DNA from: Planctomycetota bacterium | Lineage (GTDB): Bacteria > Planctomycetota > Planctomycetia > Pirellulales > Pirellulaceae | Assembly (NCBI GenBank): GCA_018970165.1 | Contig: JAGWWZ010000006.1 | Coordinates: 1 to 51,966 of the forward strand | Length of the DNA: 51,966 bases | Direction: 5' to 3' | Notes under the pieces: generated by a model | Databases searched by the model: none | Seen by the model: only the letters and a program-made list of their open reading frames with translations | What the model was told of the DNA's origin: nothing | Shown: positions 4,967 through 38,895 of the stretch, in pieces | Layout: each line of letters begins with the position of its first letter | Position numbering within the stretch: the stretch's first letter is position 1 | Made by a program: the position numbers and the translations under genes

Positions 4967-5139
4967 GGTTTAGAGTTCGGCTTTCGATTCTCTTCGCCGC
5001 GGACTGACTTGTCCTGGCGGCATCGCTGGCTACAGTATCGGACTGAATCCCAGTCCCGAGCCCATTTCTTGCGCCATGCGAAAGATTTGCCACATCGGGC
5101 ACACCGTTTCTCGGGAAGTGTCGTTTTCTTGTGACTCAA
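4963..5139 (-). CDS. DUF2256 zinc-ribbon-like small protein
   Basis: A 58-residue protein matching the DUF2256 pattern. CARCGKSF is followed by [20 protein letters not shown], giving a CxxC...CxxxC arrangement (here CARC and CSQRC) around a WRKKW core that probably binds zinc. The frame is open much further upstream, but homology begins just after a TTG at 5139-5137, which I take as start; it could be slightly different. It is divergent from the helicase and overlaps its GTG start by 9 bp. At the other end its stop shares CTAG with the lipoprotein stop. The function of the family is unknown. Confidence 0.75.
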
Positions 5140-7731
5140 TCTCTTGTTCCCAAGACCATGTCGCTGGATTTGACCGGGGAGGGACCGACAGGCCAACCTG
5201 TTCAACCCGGTCAGTATGCAGGTTTGGCAAGCGTTGAGGAGTGGATGCGGAAAACCGGCCAGGAGCCTTTTGACTGGCAACGCCGGGCATGGAGTGATTA
5301 CTGCGATGGTTTCGACGGACTGATCCTGGCCAGTACCGGGACGGGAAAGACCAAGGGGGCGTGGCTCGGCCCATTGGCTCAATGGTTGGATCAGCCCGTG
5401 GCCGAGTCGCATTGGAGTCGAGGTCCGCGTCGGCGTGCAGCACCACCACTCTTGGCCCTTTGGATTACGCCTCTCCGAGCGTTGGCTGCCGACACATGCC
5501 AGGCCCTTCAAGAATGCATCGAAGGTCTTTCACTTCCCTGGTCCCTTGAGCAACGGACGGGAGATACTTCTTCATCGACCAAGTCTCGGCAGCGTCATTC
5601 GCCCCCGACGTCGATGGTGATCACCCCTGAGAGTCTGACGCTGCTGCTGTCTTATCCAGAGTCGCTCCAGACGTTTTCACATCTACGATGTGTTGTGGTC
5701 GACGAGTGGCACGAGTTGATGGGTACCAAGCGGGGTATTCAAACGGAACTGGCTTTAGCGAGGCTTCGCGAACTAGCGCCGAACCACCAGCGTTGGGGGC
5801 TCTCGGCAACCATTGGGAATCCGGAATTTGCATTATCTTCGTTGATTGGTAATGATTCAGCGCGTCGGTCGACCATCCTTCGTTCCCCTTCGACCAAGGC
5901 GTTTGAGTTTGAGTTGCTTGCCCCTTCATCGGTGGAGCGGTTTCCTTGGGCTGGGCATCTTGGTTTGGCGATGTTGCAGCAGGTGATCGATACGATTGAG
6001 AAGGCGCGAACGACACTGGTCTTTGCGAACACACGCAATCAAGCCGAGTTGTGGTATCAATCGATTTTAAAAGCGAGGCCCGACTGGGCTGGTCGGATCG
6101 CGGTCCACCACGGCTCTCTGTCCAACGAGATCCGTTCCTGGGTTGAGCAGGCATTGCGCCAGGAGCGACTGATTGCGGTGGTTTGCACAAGCAGTCTCGA
6201 TCTGGGGGTGGATTTCGCACCGGTGGATCAGGTCATTCAAATCGGCTCTCCGAAAGGGGTTGCTCGCGTCATGCAGCGCGCCGGGCGATCCGGCCATCGA
6301 CCTGGTTTACCAAGCCGCATGACGTTCGTACCATCGCATGCCTTAGAACTTATCGAGTGGGAGGCGGCTCGCCGCGCGATATCTCGGTCTGCTGTGGAAG
6401 CTCGCACGGAACTCGCCAAGCCACTGGATTGTTTGGTGCAACATGCAGTGACGATGGCGTTGGCAGCCCCCTACACGCGAAGCATGTTGGCCAATCAAGT
6501 CCGACAGGCATTTGCGTATCGCGAACTCTCTGACGAGGAACTCGATTGGGTCTTGGAGTTTGTGACCACGGGGGGCAGTTTGCATGCCTACCCGGACTAC
6601 CATCGAGTCGCCCTCGATAAAGAACAGTATCAAGTATGCGATGCTCGCATTGCCAAGCGTCATCGCATCGCCATCGGCACCATCGCTTCGGATCTATCCA
6701 TTCAGGTCAAGACGATGAATGGCCGGGCTATAGGCACTGTCGAAGAATCGTTTGCGTCTAAGCTAAAGACCGGAGATCGGTTCTTGCTCGGTGGAAAGCT
6801 CTTAGAACTTGTCATCCTGCGCGATGGAACGGCATGGGTACGTCGAAGCAAAGGGGCTCCCACAGCCGTGCCGCGTTGGATGGGTGGCCGCATGCCTCTC
6901 TCCTCTGAATTGGCATCTGGAGTGAGGGCGTTGTTGAGCGAAGTAGCTAGCGGCACTCGCTCGGTGGACGGATTGAGGGCAATCTCGGATTTGGTTCGCA
7001 TTCAGCAGCGTTGGAGTCACATACCCAGCATGGGCGAGGTGCTCGTGGAGACCTGCACGAATCGGGATGGGCATTCTTGTATGGTCTATCCGTTTGAGGG
7101 ACGATCGGTGAGCGAAGGTTTGGCTGCGTTGTTTGCGCATCGAGTTTCGAGAAACGAAGGGATTTCGTTTTCTATCGCTGTGAACGATTATGGATTCATG
7201 ATTCACAGCGACCGCGCACCGAGCGTCGATTGGGAGAACATCCGCGATTGGTTTTCGACGGCGAGGCTCGAGGAGGATCTTCATGAGAGCCTCAACGCGA
7301 GTGAGATGCGTCGCCGCGTATTTCGTGATATAGCCCGCGTCTCTGGGTTGATACATCAGGGTGCGCCGGGGCAGGCCAAGAGTTCTCGCCATTTGCAGGC
7401 ATCATCGAGTATGGTGTTTGATGCGCTTCAACAATATGATCCAGAAAATCGCCTCTTGCTACAAGCGAGCGACGAGGTGGCTCGCGACCAGTTGGAATTG
7501 GAACGCATGCGGGGCGCATTGCAACGCATGCAAGAGAGCGCCTGGGTCGTGCGGCACCTGACTCGTTGGACACCCTTCTCATTTCCTTTGTATGTCGAAC
7601 GCATCCGCGATCGCATCAGTTCCGAGTCCTTAGCCGATCGAGTCCGCAAGGCTCAGGCTCCCCTCGAACGAGCAGCGATGAAGGAGATGGGGACCGAATT
7701 GAGTCTTGGAGTTGCGTCCGATGGAGGTTGA
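5131..7731 (+). CDS. ligase-associated Lhr-like DEXH-box helicase
   Basis: An SF2 DNA helicase of 866 residues resembling the ligase-associated DNA damage response DEXH helicase (Lhr-like, short form). Motifs in order: [12 protein letters not shown] (Q-like), LASTGTGKT (I), [10 protein letters not shown] (Ia), ITPESL, DEWHEL (II; DEWH instead of DEAH, typical of this group), LSATIGNP (III), VFANTRNQ (IV), [10 protein letters not shown] (V) and [11 protein letters not shown] (VI), followed by the winged-helix and Lhr C-terminal regions. The start is GTG 5131 or ATG 5158. The PdeM-like gene overlaps its end, the usual partner. The DNA ligase and exonuclease of the system are not in this window. 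Confidence 0.9.
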
Positions 7732-8374
7732 TCTTCAAGGGAACGCCTTCTGTTTTCATCCCAGCGGCGCATTGTATTGGCGGAAAACCAGAAGCCTCTT
7801 GCTGGCCGACCTTCACTTGGGAAAGGAATCGGTTTTCCAGCAATCTGGTGTGGCTATCCCAAGTGGAGCTACGAATGCTACGCTTCGAGTCCTCAGAACT
7901 CTCGTCCAAGCATGGAAGCCTGATCGCGTCATTGTTTTAGGAGATCTCCTTCACGCAAAGATTGGCTTGACCTCTGCACTCGAGCAGGAAATCGTTGCGT
8001 TGGTAGGAGAAGGAATTTGCCGAGAATGGATGTTGATTCCCGGAAATCACGACCGCGGAGGAATCAATGCTTTACAGCAATGCGGTTGGCAGATCGCTGA
8101 CGAGTTCGTGGAATACCACGGGGTCGAGATGACGCATGCACCGGATTCCGAGAGAAACAAATCGTCTTTGTTGATCTCTGGCCATCTCCATCCGTCGGTG
8201 CGTATCTCGCTGAGCGTCAGAGAGAAGACATTGCTGAGATGCTTTTGGCTCCATGCGTCGCAGTTGATCCTCCCGGCTTTTGGAGGATGGACGGGGACCA
8301 AGCCGATTTCTCCTGCGTCGGGAGACCGGGTCTTTGCGTGTGCTGATGATGAAGTGATCGAACTGGCAACCTAG
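7721..8374 (+). CDS. pdeM: ligase-associated PdeM-like metallophosphoesterase
   Basis: A calcineurin-like phosphoesterase of 217 residues. The metal-binding motifs are LLLADLHLGK (DxH), VIVLGDLLHAK (GDxxH-like), IPGNHDRGG (GNHD) and SGHLHPSVRI (GHxH). This matches the ligase-associated DNA damage response endonuclease PdeM. I choose the ATG at 7721, with GGAG about 9 nt upstream, over a TTG at 7706. The gene overlaps the helicase by 11 bp, so translational coupling is likely. It ends 16 nt from the convergent FHA-EAL gene. Confidence 0.88.
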   Translation: MEVDLQGNAFCFHPSGALYWRKTRSLLLADLHLGKESVFQQSGVAIPSGATNATLRVLRTLVQAWKPDRVIVLGDLLHAKIGLTSALEQEIVALVGEGICREWMLIPGNHDRGGINALQQCGWQIADEFVEYHGVEMTHAPDSERNKSSLLISGHLHPSVRISLSVREKTLLRCFWLHASQLILPAFGGWTGTKPISPASGDRVFACADDEVIELAT

Positions 8375-8390: not shown

Positions 8391-9539
8391 TCAATTCGCT
8401 GAGTTGAAGTTTGTGACGGGAGCAGGTCGTCCATAATAGTAGCCCTGTCCGAGCACGAAACCGATCTCAGCGCACATCTCGGCTTCGATTTGTGTTTCGA
8501 TCCCTTCGGCCAGCGGCACGATTCCGATGTCTCGACAAATGCGAACGAGGTTGCTCAGGAACTGAATCCGATCGAGCGAATTGCGATCGAGACCTTTGAT
8601 TAGGCTCATGTCGAACTTCAAAACATCAGGAGGAACGGAACAGAGTTCCGGCAACCGGTTCTGACCTGCGCCGAAGTCGTCGTAGGCCAATTGCACCTTG
8701 AGTTCATCGAGTACATCGCGAAGCCGGTTCATGTCTCGCAGGTTGGTGATCGCGCTTTCGTGGATTTCGAGAGTGATCGCCGATTCGGGAGCAAATTCCC
8801 GCAATTGTTGCATCGACTCGATCAGTCCTGGCCGGGTCATTTCGAGCGGGTGTGTATTGAGGTAGATACTGGCGGACTTGGGGAGTTTCGCTCCTTCGCG
8901 AACACCTTCCCAGCGGAGCATTTGGCTCAATTCGACTTCCATGTTCAGTTTGGCTGCCGCACCGAACAGGGCTTTTGGCGTTTCTAGGCCGTACACGGTA
9001 CTGCGAGCAAGAACTTCATATCCGACGGTCTTGAGATCTTCAATTTGCACAATCGGCTGATAGTGCGGAGTGACGAGCCGCTGCTCCATCAGGCGATCGA
9101 ATTGGACGAGTGCGAGCGCTTGATCGCAAACATCCTCGCACTGAGTGTTCATAGGGATCGCACCTTGAACGTCCTGTTTCAAGCGGAACGCGAAATCCGC
9201 GAACTGTAGCATATCTCCGTCCGCAACTGGGGTTTCCTCCGTGGTGCGACGACCATTGACATACGTTCCGTTAGTACTTTCGCGATCGATCACAAACAGC
9301 TCGCCTTCTTTAAGGATCAAATCAGCATGATGTCCGGAGATGGTCTTCGAGGGTATCTGAAGACAGCAACCTACTTTCCTGCCGATCGAAAAGGGAAATG
9401 GATGGATAACAGTGAGTTCTTCTGTTGGCTGTTCCCCAAGGCTAGCGAGAATCCACACCGAATGCGAATTCCCGACGCCGAATCGGCGAGGCAGTGATGC
9501 CCTAGGACTGGAGTTAAACAAAACATTCTGACTATTCAT
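8391..9539 (-). CDS. FHA-EAL protein, predicted c-di-GMP phosphodiesterase
   Basis: Residues about 45-122 form an FHA domain (FSIGR at 50-54, a KTISGHHA segment, STNGTYVNGR at 88-97), which binds phosphothreonine peptides. Residues about 155-378 form an EAL domain. It keeps EVLAR (175-179), the Asn in YLNTHP, the Glu in LEIHES, YDDFGAG, the Lys in LKFDMSL, AEGIET and QGYYYGRP, so it is likely an active c-di-GMP phosphodiesterase. It has no signal peptide or membrane segment and is probably cytoplasmic. It is divergent from the AAA ATPase/kinase-tubulin operon, whose kinase could supply the phosphothreonine ligand; that link is inference. Confidence 0.9.
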   Translation of the reverse strand: MNSQNVLFNSSPRASLPRRFGVGNSHSVWILASLGEQPTEELTVIHPFPFSIGRKVGCCLQIPSKTISGHHADLILKEGELFVIDRESTNGTYVNGRRTTEETPVADGDMLQFADFAFRLKQDVQGAIPMNTQCEDVCDQALALVQFDRLMEQRLVTPHYQPIVQIEDLKTVGYEVLARSTVYGLETPKALFGAAAKLNMEVELSQMLRWEGVREGAKLPKSASIYLNTHPLEMTRPGLIESMQQLREFAPESAITLEIHESAITNLRDMNRLRDVLDELKVQLAYDDFGAGQNRLPELCSVPPDVLKFDMSLIKGLDRNSLDRIQFLSNLVRICRDIGIVPLAEGIETQIEAEMCAEIGFVLGQGYYYGRPAPVTNFNSAN

Positions 9540-9826
9540 TGTCTATCACAAACGATGGACGTGTTCCCATGAAAAGATTTTGACGATTGCTTCAAGGGAC
9601 CCCTGGCCGAAGCCAAGTCAACGGAATTCTAGGCCATGTTTTGGGCGAGGAGAAAAGATTAGGATTTTTCCGGCAATCAATTCCCGTTATTGAAGCAAGT
9701 CCGGGGAACACATCCAGAGATCACCTTCGCTCGCCGATGAACTTCCACAGCGCACGCGCTGGTAACTCGATCAGCTTGTACCGGTTGTATCGAATACATC
9801 GACCATACATGGGATTGCCCGATATC
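9540..9826. other. divergent intergenic region between FHA-EAL and AAA genes
   Basis: These 287 bp carry whatever promoters drive the two divergent transcription units. The plus-strand frame of the AAA gene stays open back to a TTG at 9587, but that 80-residue segment does not look conserved. I see no obvious -35/-10 pair or inverted repeat. Confidence 0.4.
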
Positions 9827-11389
9827 ATGGACTCACTTCTCAAACCTCAAGAAACGCAACGCTTGAGTATGCCGGCTTTGCCGGCCGTACTCAACGATGA
9901 TTCCTTTTGGCCGTTCGAACCCAAAACGATCGAGGACTGCGGGGTTCCCGAGTCATTTGTCGAATCTATCGTTCTGCAGATATTTCTTAGTGTTGGAACC
10001 ATGACGGGCCGCGGTCTGGGAGATCGGATCAAGCTTCCGTTCCCGATCATTGAGCAGCAGCTATCGCAGTTGCGGATGCGGCAACTCGTTGCGCATGCAC
10101 GCCCTGCAGCGTTGAACGACTTCTATTACAGCATCACGGAGAAAGGTCTTCAGAGAGCTCTGAACTGTCAAAAAACAATGTCCTACACTGGGCCGTTGCC
10201 GGTACCGCTCATGGACTATGTTTTGAGCGTCGAGGCCCAGGCAGGCAATTTTTCGCCAGTTACAGAATCACACCTTCGGGCAGCCCTGAACAAAGTGACC
10301 TTCGATGCCAGTCTGCTCGATTTCCTCGGGCCTGCCGTCAATAGCAACTCGGGTATCTTCCTCTATGGACCCCCGGGCAATGGCAAATCGACGATCGCCA
10401 GGTGCCTTGCCACGTGTCGTGGCGATGACATTTGGATCCCCTACGCGATCATCGATGACGGCATGATCATCAAGTTCTTCGACCAGACATATCATACGCC
10501 AACGGGAATGCGATCCGAAACCGACAACTTCATCGCGACTCAGGAACACGACCAGAGGTGGATTCGCGTACGGCGGCCATCGGTGATCGTAGGTGGAGAG
10601 TTGACGATGGACAGCCTGGAAATCCGGCACGATACACGAAGCAATGTTTGCGAGGCCCCGCTGCAACTGAAAAGCAATTGCGGGTGCCTCCAGATCGACG
10701 ACTTCGGCCGACAACAGATCGCGCCAGCCGAATTGCTCAATCGCTGGATCGTTCCACTGGAGAGCCGTCAAGATTACCTGATGCTCCCTACTGGCAAAAA
10801 GATCTGCGTGCCATTTGAACAAATCACTCTCTTCTCGACCAACCTCGAACCGGATCAGTTGGTGGATGAAGCATTCATGCGACGTGTTCCCTTCAAGATC
10901 CAAGTTGGTGACCCGAGCCAAGAGGAATTCATCGAACTTTTCAGGCGAGTTTGTGAGAGCTCCGAGATACCCTGGAGTCTCGCCGCGATTGAACGTCTGA
11001 TTGAGAAGCATTATCGACAGGCAAATCGCCCGTTCCGGCGCTGCCATGCGAGAGACCTAGTCCATCAAATCGAGTGCTTGTGCGCCTACCGAGGTGAACC
11101 AATGGAATTACGGAACGATCTGGTGGATAAAGCGGTCCAGAACTACTTCGGTTCAAGCGGACAAAATACAAAGTTTGGAGTTGGCAACTCAAGCAATCGG
11201 ACCCAAAGCACGCAAGGAACAGCGCAACCGACGTTCGAGCGGCACGACAAAACCATCGTACTCCCCTCGCTGGAAACCAACCGTCCGGAAATTCGCATGA
11301 AACCCTCGCCAACCAGCCAACGTTCGAGTATCCCGCAGGTCCCAACGGATGCTGAAACGAACTCCCCGCGAAGACCCTCCACGACGTAA
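9827..11389 (+). CDS. AAA ATPase with N-terminal winged-helix-like region
   Basis: A 520-residue P-loop ATPase. Residues about 45-115 (LPFPIIEQQLSQLRMRQL, then a FYYSITEKGLQRA wing) resemble a winged helix. Walker A is GPPGNGKST at 181-189, Walker B LQIDDF with Asp 291-292, sensor 1 LFSTN near 338, and an arginine-finger candidate AFMRRVPF near 350. An insertion of about 90 residues lies between the Walker motifs. The C-terminal 70 residues are polar and probably disordered. ATG 9809 and TTG 9587 are alternative starts. The kinase-tubulin gene begins 9 nt after its stop, so the two are almost certainly cotranscribed. Its role is unknown; it may remodel the partner protein. Confidence 0.85.
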   Translation: MDSLLKPQETQRLSMPALPAVLNDDSFWPFEPKTIEDCGVPESFVESIVLQIFLSVGTMTGRGLGDRIKLPFPIIEQQLSQLRMRQLVAHARPAALNDFYYSITEKGLQRALNCQKTMSYTGPLPVPLMDYVLSVEAQAGNFSPVTESHLRAALNKVTFDASLLDFLGPAVNSNSGIFLYGPPGNGKSTIARCLATCRGDDIWIPYAIIDDGMIIKFFDQTYHTPTGMRSETDNFIATQEHDQRWIRVRRPSVIVGGELTMDSLEIRHDTRSNVCEAPLQLKSNCGCLQIDDFGRQQIAPAELLNRWIVPLESRQDYLMLPTGKKICVPFEQITLFSTNLEPDQLVDEAFMRRVPFKIQVGDPSQEEFIELFRRVCESSEIPWSLAAIERLIEKHYRQANRPFRRCHARDLVHQIECLCAYRGEPMELRNDLVDKAVQNYFGSSGQNTKFGVGNSSNRTQSTQGTAQPTFERHDKTIVLPSLETNRPEIRMKPSPTSQRSSIPQVPTDAETNSPRRPSTT

Positions 11390-11398
11390 GCTCAATCG

Positions 11399-14300
11399 AT
11401 GACGTGTCTCGTACTTCAACCAGGATTCGAACCCTTCCCAGGCTATGTGCTCAAGGACAAGCTTGGCTCGGGAGGATATGGAGAAGTATGGTCCGCCGAC
11501 GCCCCTGGGGGACTGACCAAGGCGATCAAGTTCGTCTTCGGAAGCATCGATGACCAACGGGGATCAACCGAACTGCGCAGTTTGAACCGAATGCGCAAGC
11601 TGAACCATCCTTTTCTACTTTCTATCGAACGTGTCGAGGTCGTCGACTCGCAATTGGTTATCGTAACCGAACTAGCGCAAGGCTCTCTCTACGACCGTTT
11701 CTTAGAGTACCGCGAGAAAGGCTACATCGGGATCCCGCAAGAACGATTACTGCGCTACCTCGCCGACGCGGCCGATGGCTTAGACTATCTCTGTCAGGAA
11801 CACGGTCTTCAACATTTGGATGTTAAGCCGGGCAATCTGCTGCTCGTCGCTGATCGGGTGAAGGTCGCTGATTTCGGACTGATTAAAAATCTACAAACAG
11901 TCAGCCAGTCCGCAAAGAATGGCTTGACTCCTATGTACGCGGCACCTGAAATGTTCGACGGTCGCCCAAGCCCAAGTAGCGATCAGTACTCGCTCGCTGT
12001 TGCCTACATTGAACTCCTTTCGGGCAATCTACCATTCCGTGGTAGAACCTGCGCGCAACTCGCCAACGAACATTTGAACAAAGCTCCTAACCTCGATTCG
12101 ATTCCTGTCATCGAACGGCCCGTTTTGGCCAAAGCGCTCGCCAAAAAACCGATCATGCGATTCGGTTCCTGCCGTGAATTCGTACGTGCTCTCGAGGATT
12201 GCCGAACGGAAAAGAAGTCACCCGGCCCCAAGTTGAAATCACGATTTGCACCGGGTGAATCACGAAACGCCGGTGACATCCAAGGTGGTAAACGCCCCGA
12301 TCAAGGAGACAACGCGAACCCATCGCCCGAAAGTGTTCAACAAAGCGATGGCATTCGAGCAAAGAACGCAAAGCCCCTTCGACTCCTCTCACCCTTGTCG
12401 CCCCTAGCATCCAATGACAAGACGAAAGATGAGAAGGTTCTGTTCATCGGACTCGGCGGCACGGGCGGTTCAGCGATTCAACTGCTCCGCATGCGCTACG
12501 AACAGAGCAATCCTACCGCACCCGCCAATCGCAAACCGAGAACGCTGTATATCGATACCGATGGGGAATCGATTGAGCAATTGACATCCATGAGAAATCT
12601 TCAAGCGATACCTCATGAGGATACTCTAACAATTCGACTGCAGTCGGCGCAGTATTTTCGGCATTGCAAATCTCCCGATGTGAATCGGATCTCTCGCAGA
12701 TGGATCTACAACATCCCGCGATCCCAAAAGACCGAGGGTGTTCGCCCGCTCGGACTACTCGCTTTCCTGGACAACGCCCGCCAGTGTTACGAGACCCTCG
12801 TTAGGTCGATAGAAGGCCTTTTCGAAGACAGTACCGAAAGCATCGCGCTCAAGGTTTACTTGATGACATCGGCGCATGGCGGTACCGGCGGCTCAATCCT
12901 TTGCGAAATCGGTTACTTGCTCCGACACATCGCTCTGTCCCTGGAACTACCGATCGAAATCCAAGCCATGCTACTGTGCGCGTCGAGTCCTGAAAAAGGC
13001 CCCGCAGGCTTGGAAGTAGCATCCGCCGTAGCATGCCTGGAGGAAATCGAAAAACACTTCAGTGTCGGAGGGCTCCACGAACCTCTTCAAAGCATCCCGC
13101 ACTATCAGTCGTTCAATCAAGTTCCATTCGATCAGGTGACCCTGCTGTATGGTGGAGTCCTTGGTCAAAAAAGGGATTGGCTCACTTCCATCGAAAATCT
13201 CGTCGACTACGTTCGCTCCCAAGAGCAAACCGATTTGGGGAAGCGACTCTTGCAGGCACGCGAGGGAGTGAAAGAATCAGCGAGCGACGAAGAACAGCAG
13301 CATGATCATCACTGGTTGAGCGCCGTCGGCTTCAGACGCTTGAATCTCCCTTCCCACAGCGACAGTATCGGATTGGCAAACCGAGGTTGCTTGGATGCTC
13401 TGAACAACTGGACCACCCTCATCAAAAAACAAATCGGCGATACCCAAGCGCTGGAGCATCATCGCAAGATCGTAAAGAACGCACCCTCAGATCTCGCTTG
13501 GACAAACGACTTGTTTCGTGGGCAACAGCTATCACCCACTCCTTGGATTCGTCGAGTGATCGCTGCGCTCGCACCTCTTGAAAACAAGCCTCTATTGACC
13601 GTTCCTGATCCACCATCTACGCGAGTCACGGATCAACCTCCCGCCATGGAGTGGGGCCTGAGCGATGATGAAATTGAAGATATCGAAGCCATTGCCTCGC
13701 AATTGAATTACGACCCCGAAAAAGCAAAGCAAGCGATTCTGTACTTGCTTTCCTCATCCACGCTTCAGCTTTGGGCTTGGATCGAACAGAGCGTGCTGAG
13801 TACACTTTCGGGCTGGAAGCATTTCGGAAAAATCATGGGGGGAATCGAGCAACGTTTCGATCTCAATATCGAGAGGATCACGACAGTTGCACGACAGATC
13901 AAAGAGAAACGGGAAGCCATCTTGGAGGACGTCTACTACTCCGACCAGGCTCGCATCCCCGATGTCGATCTCACGCTCGATACCATGCTGCTCGAGATCC
14001 GATTCCATGTGCTAGCCGCCAACCTTCAGAGCAAGCTCGAAACGAATCTAAACGAGATTGCCGCGCGTTGGCTCAGACAATCGCTCCGAATGCTCGGTGA
14101 AATGACGGAGGTCACGGCCCAGCTGATGACCGAGCTGGGAATTCAGCAAACTGGATTCGAAGACGAGGAAGAAATCACCGGGTTGATTCTCAATCCGTTT
14201 TACTGCGAGGCGATCAAGTTCCTGCGAGATTCCTCGTATTCCAGACTTTCGGACTGCTGGAATCTGCCTCCGGATTCCCGACGTCGTGTTGCTCCCGAGT

Positions 14301-14824
14301 GCAAAGAGATTCGAGGATTGGTTCGACACGTTGCTTGCACTCAGCCTCCGGATGAGACCAATTCCGATTCCACGATCTTGAATGGGCCGAGCAGAGCGAA
14401 AGGGACTGCTGGCGACATGAATTTCTTTCAGGATCGCTTTGGCTGGAATGCGATCTTCCGGTCTAGAAGCGAAGGGGACAACACGGAGGATGGAGCGGAA
14501 AATAGCGAGGCCTCCCAATCGATCAATTCCAACCTGACCGACGAATTCCGCCGTGCTCTGCCAAAGTTGATGAAGAGTGGAGGTGCGGTGCGAAACATTC
14601 TGATGATTGGAAGCCGAATTGAATCGATCTTGGAGCCAACCCACTTCCAGCAAATCAAAAACTGTCGGGCGACGACCATCTCGGACCCAATCCCTACTCG
14701 CTGTTCGATTTTCTCAATCGGCGAACAGATCAACTTGTCCGAGTTGATTCAATGTACTTGGACCCCGAATCCAGCCCTCGACGAATTAGTTCGAAGGCTG
14801 AAAACAAGTCAGGTATCCGAATAG
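11399..14824 (+). CDS. Ser/Thr kinase fused to a tubulin/FtsZ-like domain
   Basis: A 1141-residue fusion. Residues 16-268 are a Hanks-type kinase: glycine loop GSGGYGEVW (23-31), Lys44, Glu58 as C-helix candidate, HLDVKPGN (139-146; HLD replaces HRD but Asp141 remains), DFG (158-160) and APE (182-184). A polar linker (270-343) leads to a domain starting KVLFIGLGGTGGSAIQLLR (346-364), with TLYIDTDGES near 382 and a tubulin-signature-like SAHGGTGGSI (491-500). This matches the tubulin-like family Pfam calls Tubulin_2. The remaining 450 residues are largely helical and unassigned. No signal or membrane segment is present. The gene sits 9 nt after the AAA ATPase and 7 nt before convergent clpC. 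Confidence 0.85.
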   Translation: MTCLVLQPGFEPFPGYVLKDKLGSGGYGEVWSADAPGGLTKAIKFVFGSIDDQRGSTELRSLNRMRKLNHPFLLSIERVEVVDSQLVIVTELAQGSLYDRFLEYREKGYIGIPQERLLRYLADAADGLDYLCQEHGLQHLDVKPGNLLLVADRVKVADFGLIKNLQTVSQSAKNGLTPMYAAPEMFDGRPSPSSDQYSLAVAYIELLSGNLPFRGRTCAQLANEHLNKAPNLDSIPVIERPVLAKALAKKPIMRFGSCREFVRALEDCRTEKKSPGPKLKSRFAPGESRNAGDIQGGKRPDQGDNANPSPESVQQSDGIRAKNAKPLRLLSPLSPLASNDKTKDEKVLFIGLGGTGGSAIQLLRMRYEQSNPTAPANRKPRTLYIDTDGESIEQLTSMRNLQAIPHEDTLTIRLQSAQYFRHCKSPDVNRISRRWIYNIPRSQKTEGVRPLGLLAFLDNARQCYETLVRSIEGLFEDSTESIALKVYLMTSAHGGTGGSILCEIGYLLRHIALSLELPIEIQAMLLCASSPEKGPAGLEVASAVACLEEIEKHFSVGGLHEPLQSIPHYQSFNQVPFDQVTLLYGGVLGQKRDWLTSIENLVDYVRSQEQTDLGKRLLQAREGVKESASDEEQQHDHHWLSAVGFRRLNLPSHSDSIGLANRGCLDALNNWTTLIKKQIGDTQALEHHRKIVKNAPSDLAWTNDLFRGQQLSPTPWIRRVIAALAPLENKPLLTVPDPPSTRVTDQPPAMEWGLSDDEIEDIEAIASQLNYDPEKAKQAILYLLSSSTLQLWAWIEQSVLSTLSGWKHFGKIMGGIEQRFDLNIERITTVARQIKEKREAILEDVYYSDQARIPDVDLTLDTMLLEIRFHVLAANLQSKLETNLNEIAARWLRQSLRMLGEMTEVTAQLMTELGIQQTGFEDEEEITGLILNPFYCEAIKFLRDSSYSRLSDCWNLPPDSRRRVAPECKEIRGLVRHVACTQPPDETNSDSTILNGPSRAKGTAGDMNFFQDRFGWNAIFRSRSEGDNTEDGAENSEASQSINSNLTDEFRRALPKLMKSGGAVRNILMIGSRIESILEPTHFQQIKNCRATTISDPIPTRCSIFSIGEQINLSELIQCTWTPNPALDELVRRLKTSQVSE

Positions 14825-14831
14825 ATTTGTT

Positions 14832-17375
14832 TCAGGACGCGCTGGCGGCCATCGGTTCGGTGGCCTGATTGTTCTCGCGATTCTCGCCGCGGAACTCTAA
14901 GCGAACGACCTTGCCATCGGTATCCTTGAAGGCATCGATCACAATGGTGTTCTTTCCTTCGAAAGCACCCCGTAGCAATTCCTCCGCAAGAGGATCCTCA
15001 ATTCGCTGCTCGATGGCACGTCGCAACGGCCGGGCACCGTAATCCAAGTTCGATCCTTGCTTGATGATGAATTCCTTGGCTTCCTCCGTGAGATCAATTT
15101 CATAACCGCGTTCTCGCAATCGCTCGCGAACTTTGTGCAATTCAAAATCGATGACTTTCTTCAAGTCTTCCTTGTTGAGGTGACGGAAGATGATCACATC
15201 ATCCAATCGGTTTAGGAATTCAGGTCGGAACACTCGCTCGATCTGATCCATGACCCGCGTCTTCATGCTTTCATAGGAAGCATCATCGTTCGGCTTCTGA
15301 AAACCGAAGGCCGATTCGTTCTTGATCGCTTCGGCACCCGCGTTGGTGGTCAAGATCAAGATAGTGTTACGAAAATCGACGTTTCGTCCAAAGCTGTCGG
15401 TCAAACGACCTTCTTCCATCACCTGCAACAGCATGTTGAAAACATCGGGGTGGGCTTTCTCGATTTCATCGAGCAGCACAACCGCGTAGGGGCGGCGACG
15501 AATCTTCTCGGTCAACTGTCCCCCTTCTTCGTAACCTACGTAGCCCGGAGGGGCACCAATCAATCGGCTGACGTTGTGCTTCTCCATGTATTCGCTCATG
15601 TCGATGTGGATCAACGCATCCGAGTCTCCGAAGAGCGATTCGGCCAAAGCTTTGGCGAGCAACGTTTTACCCACACCGGTTGGGCCGGCGAAGACGAAGC
15701 ATCCGGTGGGGCGCTTGGGATCCTTCAGTCCGCTTCGGCTCCGTCGCACTGCCTTAGCAACTGCCGACACGGCTTGGTCTTGACTGACCACTCGCTTGTG
15801 GAGTTCATCTTCCATGCTCATCAGACGTAGCGAGTCTTCAGTAGAGAGTCGTGTGAGGGGAATGCCGGTCATTTTGGACACAACCTCAGCGATCACTTCT
15901 TCATCGACTACTCCATCCGCTTCGCGACTCTTTTCACGCCATTCTCGGGTGATCTGTTCCTTCTTGCGACGCAACTTATCTGCTTGGTCGCGCAGAGCCG
16001 CCGCTTTTTCAAAGTCTTGGTTTGCGACGGCTTCTTCCTTTTCCTTGTTCAAACGTTCGACATCCTCGTCGATTTCCTTGAGATCGGGTGGCTTGGCCAT
16101 CGTTCGCAAGCGAACACGTGCACCGGACTCGTCGATCACATCGATGGCCTTATCAGGCAGGCAGCGAGCGGTGATATATCGCTCGCTCATCTCAACCGCT
16201 GCGACAATCGCATCGTCGGTAATCTGGACACGGTGATGCTCCTCGTAGCGTTCTTTGAGCCCTTTGAGGATCTGGATCGTTTCATTTTTCGAGGTTGGCT
16301 CGACAATGATTTCCTGGAATCGTCGTGCGAGTGCATTATCCTTTTCGATGTACTTTCGGTATTCATCGAGAGTCGTCGCACCGATGCATTGGATTTCTCC
16401 GCGGGCGAGTGCGGGTTTGAGAACATTGGCAGCGTCGATCGCTCCCTCTGCTCCACCGGCACCCACCAACGTATGCAGTTCGTCGATGAACAGGATCGTG
16501 TTGCGTGCGCGTCGAACCTCGTTCATCACCGCCTTGATACGCTCTTCGAATTGACCTCGATATTTCGTACCCGCAACCATCATCGCCAAGTCGAGAACGA
16601 CGATCCTCTTCTCGGCGAGAATCTCGGGGACTTCACCGTTGACCACGCGTTGTGCGAATCCCTCTACAATCGCGGTCTTTCCTACGCCAGCTTCACCGAG
16701 AAGAACGGGGTTGTTCTTGGTTCGGCGACACAGGACTTGTGTTGCTCGTTCGATTTCGCGTTCGCGACCGATAACAGGGTCGAGTTTACCTTGACGGGCT
16801 AGTTCCGTCAGGTCGCGGCCAAAGCTGTCCAAGGCCGGAGTCTTGCTCTTGCCACCCTTGGTCGAAGTTCCTCCCTCGCTTTGCGAACCGCTGCTTGCCG
16901 GTTCCCGTCCCCCTCGCTCAACGTCCGAACTTTCCATGCCATGTCCGAGCAGGTTCAAAACTTCCTCGCGCACGTCTTCGAGCTTCATTCCCAGATTCAT
17001 CAATACCTGGGCGGCGACACCTTCTTGCTCGCGGAGCAGTCCAAGGAGGATGTGCTCGGTGCCGACATAGTTGTGATTTAGATTTCGCGCTTCCTCCATC
17101 GAGTACTCGATGACCTTCTTGGCTCGAGGAGTTTGAGGCAGCTTTCCGATGGTGACCATCTCAGGTCCGCTCTGCACCAACTTTTCAACTTCGAGTCGGA
17201 TCTTGCGCAGGTCGACATCTAGGTTTTTGAGAACGTTCGCGGCGACACCGCTACCCTCTTTCACGAGCCCCAACAAAATGTGCTCGGTGCCGATGTATTC
17301 GTGGTTGAACCGCTGCGCCTCTTGATTGGCTAGCTGCATTACTTTTCGAGCGCGGTCAGTAAATCGTTCGTACAT
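14832..17375 (-). CDS. clpC: ATP-dependent Clp protease ATPase subunit ClpC
   Basis: An 847-residue HSP100 unfoldase of the ClpC type. In order: two Clp N-repeats (residues 1-145), a Ser/Gly-rich linker, D1 with Walker A GEAGVGKT (227-234), a UVR-type middle segment ([18 protein letters not shown]), D2 with Walker A GPTGVGKT and a C-terminal D2 small domain. AFGFQKPN in D2 is the FGF-type loop that docks onto ClpP, so it should feed a ClpP protease. The start is the ATG at 17375, with an AGGA site in GGAAAGGAAC just upstream, rather than the TTG at 17393. An 18-bp perfect palindrome lies about 27 bp upstream of the start. Confidence 0.95.
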
Positions 17376-34897: not shown

Positions 34898-37800
34898 TTA
34901 ACGACGAATCGTTGTCGTCGTCCCAGAAGTTGTGGGTACTGGCGTGCTAGGTGTCGCTAACGGACGATAGCCGACCGGCGCGACATTGTTAGGCATCGCT
35001 CCCATCGGCACATAGGACGAATTGTTGATCGTTGCAGGGTTGTTTCCCGGTGGCGCGGTGTAGCTGCTTCCTTGGATCAAACTCCGACGAGGGTTTCGCG
35101 ACGAAGTAGGCTCACTCGGGAAGAGAGCCGAGGGCGCACTATTATTGCTTGGGTCACCGAAGTAGAGTTGCCCATCGACCGGTTCCTGCATAGGAGATTC
35201 CTGCAGAGGTTGCCCCTCGACCGGATAGCTTCCCGAGTTAACCGCGGGTTGATTGGAATCGTACTCGACTGTCGGTGTCTCATCGGGATAGATGACTGGC
35301 GAGGAAGCAGGTCCCCAAAGACCATTGCCAGGTGACAGCCCCTTGTCGCCATGGATGTTCAGCACGTCAGCCAGACACCAACTCATGCGAGAGGACTCGA
35401 CCATCTTGATCATGTCGAGCTTGTTCGCATCATTGAAATTGATCACGCGTGGGGTCATGACAACCAGTAATTCCGTTCGGTTCTCGACTTCTTTGTCGTA
35501 TCGGAACAAGGCGCCTGCAATCGGAATATCGGCCAGCCACGGAACGCGGCGCGAAGTGGAAGACCGCGACTTGCTGATTAGCCCACCGATAACTACGGTC
35601 TGTCCGTCATAAGCGGTGACACGAGTCTGCGCGATTGTCTGGTTGAACGCCGGTGTCAAGGTGGTGCCACCACCGACAGCACCGTTCGCTACCTCCAGAC
35701 CGTTGGCACGATCGATCGTCGCGCGACTGATCGCGACAATCATGTTGACTAATCCATCCTCGTTGGTGCGAGGCTGAATCTGCAGGGTCAGGCCCGCATT
35801 TACATAATTCACATTCTGTTGAATTCCGTTGACACTAGCGACCGTTCCTCCGAGAACAGGGATAGACTGGCCCACGTTAATCACCGACACATTGTTATCG
35901 ATGGTAGTGAGAGTCGGCCGAGCGAGAATCTGAGCGCGATTCGCATCTTGCAGCATGCGGAATAAGAGTCCTACCGATTCGCTGCTAGCGGCGAGAACCA
36001 ATCCTCCATAACCCAAGTCGCTCGTTCTGCCCAAAGCGAACCCGGATGACCCCTGGCCAGCGACATTTTGAGGACGGCGCTGAGTACTTGCGGAATTGAA
36101 CGCCGGTGTAAGGATGTTGAATACCGGGCTTCCCAACGTTCCACCCGATGCGCTGTTGCGGTCGAACAACAAGGAATCTTGCAGACCTAGCTCCGTGCCG
36201 AATTCGAATTGGTCGTCCAATGTCACCTCAGCGATCAGCATTTCGACAAAGATCATCGGCTGCTGGCGATCGAGTCGCTCGATCACATCGCGAATCTGTT
36301 GCAAGTAGCGAGGTGTAGCGCTGATAACAATACTGTTGGTCGACGGTTCGGCAATCACAAACACTTCGCGATCGACCCGTTCGAACAAGCTAATCGCTTG
36401 TCCCGAAATCAATTGCTGCGTGATGACCTGACGCTGCGTGTTGAGCAAGTTATTGAGGGCCGTGAAGATATCCGACGCATTCGCGTTTCTTAGCCAGATC
36501 ACCTCATTGGTGCGTTGTTGGCCACCTGTTTCATCCAATCGATACAGGAGCACTTCGATTACCTCTAAATCCGAGCCTGCACCCGATACGATGATCGAGT
36601 TGGTTCGAGTGTCGGCGGAGATTCGAAGAGGCACCAGCGAGCTTTCTCCACCTCCGGTCAACGCGGCCAAGTTCTGCAAACCGATCGTCGCTGCACTCGT
36701 GGCGGATGCACCCGCAGTCGCTGGAAGGCCAAAGACCTGTTGCAGGGTCAACGCCAAGCTAGTCGCATCACCGTTGACCACTGGAAAAACTTTGATGCGA
36801 GCATCGGCCGAAGGCAACTGGTCCAATTGCTCGATCAACGAAGCGATCAACGGCATGCTCTTCGATGGTGCTCGCACCACCAACGCATTGATGCTCGGGT
36901 TGGTCGTGATGACGACACCCGTGAGGATACCGGAGTTTACCTCCATGCCATCTCGAGGCGAAAACGATAGCCTGCTACTCGGGGTGCTTGCTCGCGACGA
37001 TCCCGTGCCACCCTGCGTTTGTTGCTGCTGGCCCCCTTGTTGGCCAGTGGTCGTTCCTGTCGATGTTCCTGTAATCGCGGATTGGAGAACGGGTTGCAAC
37101 TCGGACGCAACAGCATTCTTGATCGGGAAGACCCGTATCTCACTCTCGGCAGGTGTCGACTCGACATCGATTTCTAGCAGCAGTCTCGCCACTTCGGCGA
37201 TGTCGCGAGGAGACGCCTGTACGATCAACGAGTTGGTGCGGTAATCCGCGATCACCTTGACCCGAGTCGTCAATTGCGTATTGGGAGTTGCCCCCGTCGT
37301 ACCGGTCGTTCCCGTCCCTGTCCCTGGATCGTTGAAGAAGTTTTTAATGATCGTTTCTGCATCGTTCGCAGAGGAATTGACCAATCGGAAGACGCGAAGC
37401 TGATTGTTCGGATCGAGCGGTTGATCGAGTTTGGCGATCAGTTCCTTGATACCGGTAAGCGCTTCCGGCCGGCCAATCAGCAAGAGCACATTGGGCTGGC
37501 CCAATGCATACAGGCTGATTTGTCCCTGCCGAGGCGAAAAGACTTTGTCATTGAGGTCTTTGAGAACTGGCTCAATGGCTACGCCGTTCACATGCTTGAG
37601 CGGATAGAGTTCGATTTCCGGTTGGGTCTCGGCGCTCTGCTTCTTGATCTGCTCGATCACCTCGAGAACGCGCTGCACATCCCGCTTGCCCCCTTTGACA
37701 ATCACCAATCCCATTTCAGGAACGAACGAGATATCGACATCGCCGATCAAACCGGTGCCGCTGCTGAGCGCTTCCGGAGAGCCGACGGCCATCCCCGGAG

Positions 37801-38671
37801 CGTTGTCGTCTTGAGGGTTTTGTGGATTGCCAACGCGTGCGCTGCCGGTGGCTTGTTCGTCTTGCGGAGGTTGCTGAAACGATGCCAATCGGACCAGGCT
37901 GATCGCTTTCTCAATCCGCTCAGGAGTTGCTGGCGTGATGGGAACGATCTGGGTAGGGCGCTGCGGATCGCTGGTTGCCAAGTCGATCGCCGAAACGACT
38001 TGAGTCCATGACAGCACTTCCTGCGGCGTTCCTTGGAGTCGCACTTCGTCGTTGCGACGATCGATTTGAAGCAGTTCGCGTGCGCCCTCTTGGGTCATCA
38101 TGTGAAGTTGAGCGATCTCGCCATTGTTCGTTGTCGAGAGTGTCATGCGCGATCCAGCGATTCGCATGATCGCGTCTTCCAATTCTCGCCAGGTTACCCG
38201 CTGCAACTTGTATTGCCGGGACTGGACCGTGTTGGTCATCACGCGACCAGTCTGCGCATCGCGGACGACGTTCGGAACCTGACGACGCCAACCCTCGACG
38301 GTCGCGTCGATCTGAGTCAATGTTGCTTCGGGAGCCATGACCATCAGCCGCCCCGAGGTGGATTCCGTCGTGATGCGCACGCGGGAGTCTTTGCCGTACT
38401 GGACTGTTAGCTCGGCCACGGCATTGGCCACCATTTCCGTCGGCAAATCATAGACTCGCAACCGAGCCTCACTCGATCGCGCCGGAGCATTGGCTGGCCT
38501 CTGACCATTTTGTTGAGGCTGTGCGCGCGATGACTGCCCCAGTGAGTCGGAAGCAAAACCACCTAGCGACATTAGGCACAACGCACCCACCACTTGACGG
38601 CGACCCCACCCAAGACACCAAACTCGGATGAGGCTCCCCTTCGTTTTCGCTTGCTTGTTCACGACTTTCAT
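34898..38671 (-). CDS. giant secretin (type II/III secretion or pilus family)
   Basis: An outer-membrane secretin of about 1257 residues, roughly twice the usual length. It has a signal peptide ([20 protein letters not shown]), then a series of secretin N-type modules recognisable by starts such as [50 protein letters not shown] and [13 protein letters not shown], separated by polar inserts. The C-terminal secretin domain reads [28 protein letters not shown] and [27 protein letters not shown], and a Pro/Ser-rich tail ends the protein. The start is ATG 38671 or GTG 38701. No inner-membrane secretion genes are nearby. Confidence 0.9.
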
Positions 38672-38895
38672 GCCTCGTTGTAAACGATTGCGGGAGCCCA
38701 CAGCGCAGGGATCCCCTCACTCGTTTCATCGGTATTGCCGGCAACATCACTCCAGGTAAACAACTCAACGTTGTTGGCAAAGTTTCACATTTTCGAGAGC
38801 TCGAAGGGCTCGGGGTGGCGTTGCGAAAGCTAGCGATTCTGCGACAATCTGGCGGTTTCCAGGATGGTTTTAACCAGCTTTCAGGAAACAAAACG

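Follow-up and report, generated by a model that had tools for sequence, protein, structure and literature searches.

Background

The FtsZl1 (Tubulin_2) family of tubulin-like proteins was described by Makarova and Koonin in 2010, and the text of that paper reports four members from planctomycetes that carry a kinase at the N-terminus (PMC2875224); the planctomycete kinase-FtsZl1 fusion appears again in PMC9871819. In the planctomycetes studied in PMC11032199, the tubulin-like domain is the commonest partner among the domains exclusive to cytoplasmic kinases. The partners named for the family in the main text of PMC2875224 are vWA, GTPase and OmpA proteins and separate kinases, with no AAA or FHA-EAL protein among them. 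We found no paper in the open literature, supplementary files not being covered, on AAA or FHA-EAL neighbours of kinase-FtsZl1 proteins, and none there with experimental work on the function of planctomycete FtsZ-like kinase fusions. The locus considered here lies at positions 8391-14824 of a 51,966-nucleotide stretch of DNA from a Planctomycetota bacterium (JAGWWZ010000006.1; the whole stretch is called the window below) and encodes a kinase-FtsZl1 fusion, an AAA ATPase and a protein that joins an FHA to an EAL domain. The fusion has the same GTPase domain and N-terminal kinase as the described planctomycete members, with a C-terminus that is mostly helical in a model of low confidence, and we regard the three-gene module as a variant of FtsZl1-centred systems and not as a new category. 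What we report here is the conserved AAA and FHA-EAL partners, the kinship of the AAA ATPase with Tad pilus loci, and a second form of the module. An earlier note, made from the sequence alone, knew of no characterised system with this exact set; the partners are new as far as we found, but the kinase-FtsZl1 fusion has been in print since 2010 and the AAA-Tad kinship had been overlooked.

The logic of a Ser/Thr kinase and an FHA reader is familiar from the mycobacterial and corynebacterial kinase-FHA switches GarA and OdhI, but in the module the reader is fused to an EAL domain and the kinase to a GTPase-like domain. The EAL protein of the window has all eight residues that we take to be catalytic in EAL-type cyclic di-GMP (c-di-GMP) phosphodiesterases; unlike these, it is fused to FHA, and its site is lost in the second form. 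The ATPases of Tad/Flp (type IVc) pilus loci, for example that of Rhizobium sophoriradicis (NZ_CP104153), are homologous to the AAA of the module, which differs from them in adjoining kinase-tubulin and FHA-EAL genes.

Gene arrangement and conservation

As the earlier note had claimed, and as the open reading frame (ORF) list and Pfam agree, the FHA-EAL gene is divergent from the AAA gene, and the AAA and kinase-tubulin ORFs are separated by 9 nucleotides. The features of the locus are as follows.

8391-9539, minus strand: FHA-EAL gene, 382 amino acids (ORF list, Pfam)
9201-9389, minus strand: FHA domain of FHA-EAL (Pfam, residues 51-113, 2e-16)
8424-9098, minus strand: EAL domain of FHA-EAL (Pfam, residues 148-372, 1.2e-37)
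9540-9826, no strand: spacer between the divergent FHA-EAL and AAA genes, putative promoter region (from sequence)
9587-11389, plus strand: AAA ORF as called by the ORF finder, 600 amino acids, TTG start
9827-11389, plus strand: winged-helix AAA+ ATPase gene, likelier extent, ATG start, homologue of the Tad/Flp-locus ATPase
near 10367-10393, plus strand: Walker A of AAA (alignment)
11165 (approximate)-11389, plus strand: C-terminal tail of AAA, predicted disordered, Ser/Thr-rich
11399-14824, plus strand: kinase-FtsZl1 (Tubulin_2) fusion gene, whole, 1141 amino acids (ORF list, Pfam)
11444-12082, plus strand: Ser/Thr kinase domain (Pkinase, residues 16-228, 1.7e-29)
12440-13144, plus strand: Tubulin_2 / FtsZl1 GTPase-like domain (PF13809, residues 348-582, 3e-14)
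13664-14335, plus strand: mostly helical region, residues about 756-979 (DSSP on a low-confidence model)

The ATG at 9827 is the likelier start of the AAA gene because the conserved part begins directly after it.

Of 396 genomes of the order, 142 have a match to the tubulin part, that of G250 being weak (E 2.8e-5, with stops); among the 253 better genomes (completeness of at least 90%, contamination of no more than 5%) the number is 123. AAA matches, paralogues included, occur in 233 of the 396 genomes and in all 142 genomes that have the tubulin part. We compared 40 kinase-tubulin regions from 39 genomes, picked for high score or long contigs and not at random, and scored genes as present by tblastn at a bit score above 150 (AAA) or above 60 (FHA-EAL and the REC-GGDEF-CBS gene discussed below). 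AAA was present in 38 of these regions and FHA-EAL in 36, with all three genes in 36. FHA-EAL was missing from L056, where the contig ends, and from L060, L073 and L083; L060 and L073 were also without AAA. In L060 (genome G463) the kinase-tubulin gene stands alone, with FHA-EAL and AAA genes as a divergent pair some 28 kb away on the same contig.

Another 80 loci were fetched from named genomes through an AAA alignment; they partly overlap the 40 regions, at least twice, L056 and L090 being the same contig and L083 and L092 near copies of each other. Kinase-tubulin was carried by 22 of the 80, and 20 of the 22 also had FHA-EAL, the exceptions being L090, where AAA starts at the contig end, and L092. 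Carriers of all three genes include Pirellula sp., Rhodopirellula sp. SM50, Laterigemmans baculatus, Mariniblastus sp. and Bythopirellula sp., and the three genes are adjacent in further families of the order as well; in R. europaea 6C, FHA-EAL was not found in the stretch examined. When the 22 loci were clustered all against all, no flanking family beyond the three occurred in more than four of them. The vWA, GTPase and OmpA context, which the text of PMC2875224 gives as frequent and not as defining, was absent from the scanned neighbours in the window, and no such extra family passes that count of four in the 22 loci, where flanking families were not all named.

Gene places were also counted for 147 tubulin matches in 140 genomes (the window, the weak G250 match and a second piece in G381 being left out); as the counts draw on 144 of the 150 AAA matches listed (all but that of the window and five more) and on 149 of the 150 FHA-EAL matches listed, they are lower bounds. 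An AAA gene lay upstream within 10 kb on the same strand in at least 108 places, and on either strand in at least 110; FHA-EAL lay within 10 kb in at least 95, and both partners were found in at least 80. Among these 80 full sets, FHA-EAL was divergent and upstream in 53, downstream on the same strand in 17, and upstream on the same strand in 10. The search for conserved adjacency that the earlier note had proposed thus finds the set in other families of the order, and its suggestion of one candidate system is strongly supported, since the neighbourhood is conserved (36 of the 40 chosen regions) in three gene orders. That the three genes form one real module seems to us almost certain.

Properties of the three proteins

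In the kinase-tubulin protein, the glycines of the G-loop, K44, E58, H139-L140-D141, K143, N146, D158 and G160 are invariant among 23 aligned sequences; the HLD takes the place of the usual HRD, and the roles we assign to these motifs, as to those of the AAA protein, are assumed. Tubulin_2 (PF13809) matches with a score of 53.5 bits against a curated cut-off of 27, and the domain has T1-like (GLGGTGG) and T4-like (HGGTGGS) loops. The tubulin part (residues 336-1141) was modelled from an alignment of 21 rows, which comprised 20 of the 22 kinase-tubulin loci (two fragments were dropped) and the window. The model is weak overall, with a mean predicted local distance difference test (pLDDT) score of 66.4 and a predicted template modelling (pTM) score of 0.55, but residues of about 345-614 reach a mean pLDDT of 83 (blocks 64-94). 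The best 50 Foldseek matches all belong to the tubulin/FtsZ superfamily or its complexes, with CetZ (3zid_B, E 5.7e-6) at the top. The earlier note had made its reading depend on a tubulin fold in residues 346-700; the prediction gives such a fold in the GTPase half of the protein, and we do not extend it to the C-terminal half, as good confidence covers only residues of about 345-614. The low-confidence helical assignment of residues of about 756-979 fits the coiled-coil or helical C-terminus described for FtsZl1 in the text of PMC2875224.

A plasmid search with the kinase-tubulin query matched 381 records, none of which covers the protein to 80%, and the best 10 rows lie within residues 1-362, at the kinase end. 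Elsewhere in the phylum, a hidden Markov model search found FtsZl1 in 9 of 199 genomes, including the source genome and G121 of its family. Three tubulin proteins scanned from the seven other genomes (L189, L192 and L193) had no kinase domain. In L193 a kinase-like ORF stands separately, some 4 kb from the FtsZl1 gene, and in L189 and L190 the FtsZl1 gene adjoins a vWA-PKD gene.

The AAA ORF gives only weak Pfam matches below cut-off, around Walker A (best 0.0012). A model of 519 amino acids, built from 31 rows (30 of the 80 AAA loci and the window), has a mean pLDDT of 77.6. Ahead of the AAA core it has a winged-helix-type domain at residues of about 41-102, mostly at pLDDT 94-98, with three helices and two strands, one of them short, which agrees with the winged-helix-like N-terminus of the earlier note. 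The best fold matches in the PDB are an uncharacterised Pyrococcus AAA protein (8p49, E 3.7e-11) and Lon ATPases. Walker A, DDFGRQ, which sits at the expected place of Walker B, FSTN and R351-R352 are invariant or nearly so in the 31 sequences. After the core, about 70 residues of the model form a disordered tail (pLDDT about 31-42). This tail (11165-11389), which is even longer in some relatives from the genus, contains a T-I-V-L stretch, which to us resembles FHA-type phosphothreonine motifs.

The FHA-EAL protein of the window has all of the FHA residues R54, S68, H71, N90 and N95, and all eight of the EAL residues E175, N228, E258, D287, D288, K308, E345 and Q365, which we take to have the usual ligand and catalytic roles. 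It is therefore predicted, from these residues, to be a c-di-GMP phosphodiesterase. Partial NCBIfam matches of its FHA domain are to FhaB and OdhI. The same genome has two EAL and seven GGDEF matches, one 608-codon frame having both. All five FHA ligand residues are kept in 56 of 56 aligned FHA-EAL proteins, while the eight EAL residues are complete in 45 and down to 0 to 5 in the other 11, which makes the FHA reader the constant part of the module and the phosphodiesterase activity probably optional. The link to c-di-GMP drawn in the earlier note thus holds for the window, whose protein is one of the two EAL matches of its genome, but is not constant across the module.

The second form of the module

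Ten of the 40 regions have an extra divergent gene between AAA and FHA-EAL. Scans of L061 and L087 identified it as REC-GGDEF-CBS, and the other eight match these two by tblastn. The 11 degenerate EAL proteins are those of these ten regions and of L109, in which the FHA-EAL gene is cut by the contig end and the last three positions are gaps. The GG[DE]EF motif is missing from 11 of 11 extra proteins, whereas the aspartate of the REC site is kept in all 11. Both forms can occur in one genome (L076 and L077 of G220). Like this pair, L185 (G315) shows two modules, one with an intact EAL and one with a degenerate EAL and a gene in the REC-GGDEF-CBS position.

A kinase-tubulin tree was built from 61 of 63 rows, with label A given to all rows that are not B or C, including the partnerless L060 and L073. 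On this tree a branch (100/100) separates the codirectional form from the rest. For the degenerate form three label changes are needed, of which the starred branches force only one, so that the tree does not establish repeated EAL loss. The enzyme domains of the second form may act instead as docking or ligand-sensing parts.

Kinship of the AAA ATPase with Tad loci

Sequence comparison shows the AAA protein to be a homologue of an ATPase from Tad/Flp pilus loci. In a Vampirovibrionales record (L156), TadZ-like, CpaF and TadB-type genes follow a more distant relative of the AAA gene; in a Phycisphaerae record (L124), CpaF and TadC-type genes precede such a relative, and in L131 a TadC-type gene does. 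In a plasmid collection, 75 records match the AAA, 57 of them from Rhizobium; CpaF-, TadB- and TadC-like genes are present in all four of the 75 plasmid loci that were opened (two of them without annotation), and the AAA proteins of these four share 30-35% identity with that of the window. RcpC (PF16976), which we take to be of the Tad CpaB type, is found in 139 of the 142 genomes with the tubulin part, 225 of the 233 with AAA, and 270 of the 396 overall. Kinship and co-occurrence point to Tad pili; gene position does not.

A proposed mechanism and its alternatives

We read the locus as a signalling module of three proteins and propose, as the most economical scheme, that the tubulin-like part may bind GTP and oligomerise, giving a scaffold that would cluster the kinase. 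The clustered kinase would phosphorylate the kinase-tubulin or AAA proteins on threonines of their linkers or tails, and the FHA domain of FHA-EAL would dock on these phosphothreonines, bringing the c-di-GMP phosphodiesterase to one place. The AAA ATPase may remodel a target complex, most likely a part of a Tad/Flp-type pilus encoded elsewhere in the genome, or an attachment appendage of a related kind. Overall, c-di-GMP would fall locally and pilus assembly or attachment would be switched. The groundwork is that the genes are kept together across the order and that, in the alignments, the kinase, AAA, FHA and window-form EAL keep the expected residues. It is probable that the FHA domain reads a product of a kinase. 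The phosphorylation control put forward in the earlier note remains a suggestion that fits the intact kinase motifs and the constant FHA residues. Whether the kinase-tubulin protein forms a polymer is a question on which we lean slightly to the negative; the scheme as a whole, with its phospho-scaffold, FHA-EAL reader, Tad-type AAA, local tuning of c-di-GMP and perhaps pili or attachment, is put forward tentatively, and a pilus or attachment output is somewhat more doubtful again. According to the text of PMC5394234, the crateriform structures of planctomycetes bear pili-like fibres, and the cells have a polar stalk; these fibres or the stalk could, as a speculation, be targets of the module.

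Several observations weigh against this scheme. Nine query proteins from the Tad loci L156 and L124 match none of the 40 kinase-tubulin regions, while the control loci are positive, a result that counts against the scheme and against a pilus output in particular. In the 80 AAA loci, the Tad queries match L124, L131 and L156, and L093 weakly, through a gene that was not scanned. No Tad locus was seen beside the second AAA gene of the source genome (L182), where the contig ends about 670 bases away and the sequence on the other side gave no informative context, and the AAA of the window lies outside any Tad locus. The Fisher values for the co-occurrence of RcpC are tiny, but they take no account of phylogeny or of the size of the genomes. 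In a few genomes (L060, L073 and L083) the parts of the module are apart. The degenerate EAL and GGDEF of the second form mean that c-di-GMP turnover cannot be the universal output. The authors of PMC2875224 were unable to find the usual C-terminal elements in FtsZl1, which makes polymerisation doubtful.

Evidence for a shared phosphothreonine-type motif is weak as well. The motif T-x-[VI]-[FLVMI], which we assume to be of the FHA type, was picked after looking at the proteins and was compared with shuffled sequences. It exceeds the shuffles in the linkers (10 versus 5.4) and C-terminal tails (6 versus 2.2) of kinase-tubulin and in the tails of AAA (8 versus 2.1), but not in the N-termini (9 versus 8.1) or linkers (3 versus 3.4) of FHA-EAL. 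Folded regions depart from the shuffles in both directions, with the tubulin domain (39 versus 26.8) and AAA core (68 versus 41.2) above, and the kinase (1 versus 16.7) and EAL (9 versus 19.5) below. The tails of 58 paralogous AAA proteins total 91 residues. The enrichment is post hoc and may serve as a lead only.

The absence of Tad genes beside the module also suits a different explanation, in which FtsZl1 acts as Makarova and Koonin proposed and the kinase and AAA take the place of the vWA protein and GTPase, so that a planctomycete membrane is shaped and not pili. This draws on a proposal made at the level of the family in the text of PMC2875224, and since FtsZl1 adjoins vWA-PKD genes elsewhere in the phylum (L189 and L190), such a role could be ancestral. 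The partners of the module differ, however, from those named in that text, and the 22 kinase-fused loci have no recurrent family beyond the three, so that we consider membrane remodelling unlikely. An expression switch, with the AAA as a winged-helix transcription regulator and the tubulin domain as a mere GTP-sensing scaffold, would account for the N-terminus of the AAA, and sigma-54-activator-type AAA chains, including FleQ with c-di-GMP, appear at fold ranks 19, 32 and 33. The best fold matches are nevertheless the uncharacterised Pyrococcus protein and Lon, and the relatives of the AAA are genes of Tad pilus loci, which leaves this reading quite improbable.

A conflict or anti-phage system would have the kinase as trigger, the tubulin and AAA proteins as amplifier and the second-messenger enzyme as effector. 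Tubulin-bearing conflict systems are described in the text of PMC7159879, and PADLOC gave matches to mad6 and PD-T4-6 on the kinase domain and a weak match to IetA on the AAA. But the listed kinase matches end by about residue 315, leaving the tubulin part uncovered, the best stretches of the AAA matches are 20 to 53 residues long, the scanned neighbours in the window are of housekeeping type, and the same partner set recurs in 36 of 40 regions. A defence system was rejected because the matches were to the kinase domain and to part of the AAA, with no whole-protein match, and we rate the idea as distinctly improbable. Least probable of all is a role in division or budding, with the kinase-tubulin protein as a cytoskeletal replacement for the absent FtsZ. 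FtsZ-less division is an open problem, as the text of PMC5147048 sets out, and the FtsZ/tubulin family PF00091 has no match in the source genome (the control was positive in 13 of 14), which agrees with the absence of FtsZ from planctomycetes in that paper. The kinase-tubulin gene, however, has a match in only 142 of the 396 genomes (123 of the 253 better ones), so the rest must divide without it, and its partners are of signalling and pilus type. As most genomes of the order are without the gene, a general substitute for FtsZ was rejected.

Neighbouring genes

The scanned neighbours of the module in the window (Pfam) are unrelated to it: an Lhr-type helicase, a calcineurin-like phosphoesterase and ClpC. 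A large Lhr-type helicase gene and then an overlapping phosphoesterase gene occupy 5131-8374, a pair that seems to us to resemble the Lhr-phosphoesterase pairs of DNA repair. The clpC gene is convergent with the kinase-tubulin gene, with 7 nucleotides between their ends (14824-14832). Further along, at 34898-38701, is a secretin gene (Secretin_N repeats and a Secretin domain), which may belong to a type II/IV pilus or secretion system.

Significance

Planctomycetes lack FtsZ and still divide, bud, attach and form rosettes. At its most ambitious, and we think it unlikely to hold in full, our proposal is that a filament or cluster of the kinase-tubulin protein serves these FtsZ-less budding bacteria as a cytoskeletal hub, of a kind for which we found no precedent, with an FHA-recruited phosphodiesterase and a Tad-derived AAA motor, and so couples a tubulin-like protein, phosphorylation and c-di-GMP to the behaviour of pili or the stalk. 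The second form, in which the motifs are degenerate, offers a natural control for docking versus enzymology. The fixed partners described here make the FtsZ-like kinase fusions testable, as to the substrate of the kinase, reading by the FHA domain, a local fall in c-di-GMP, and a Tad-type pilus or the stalk as the target.

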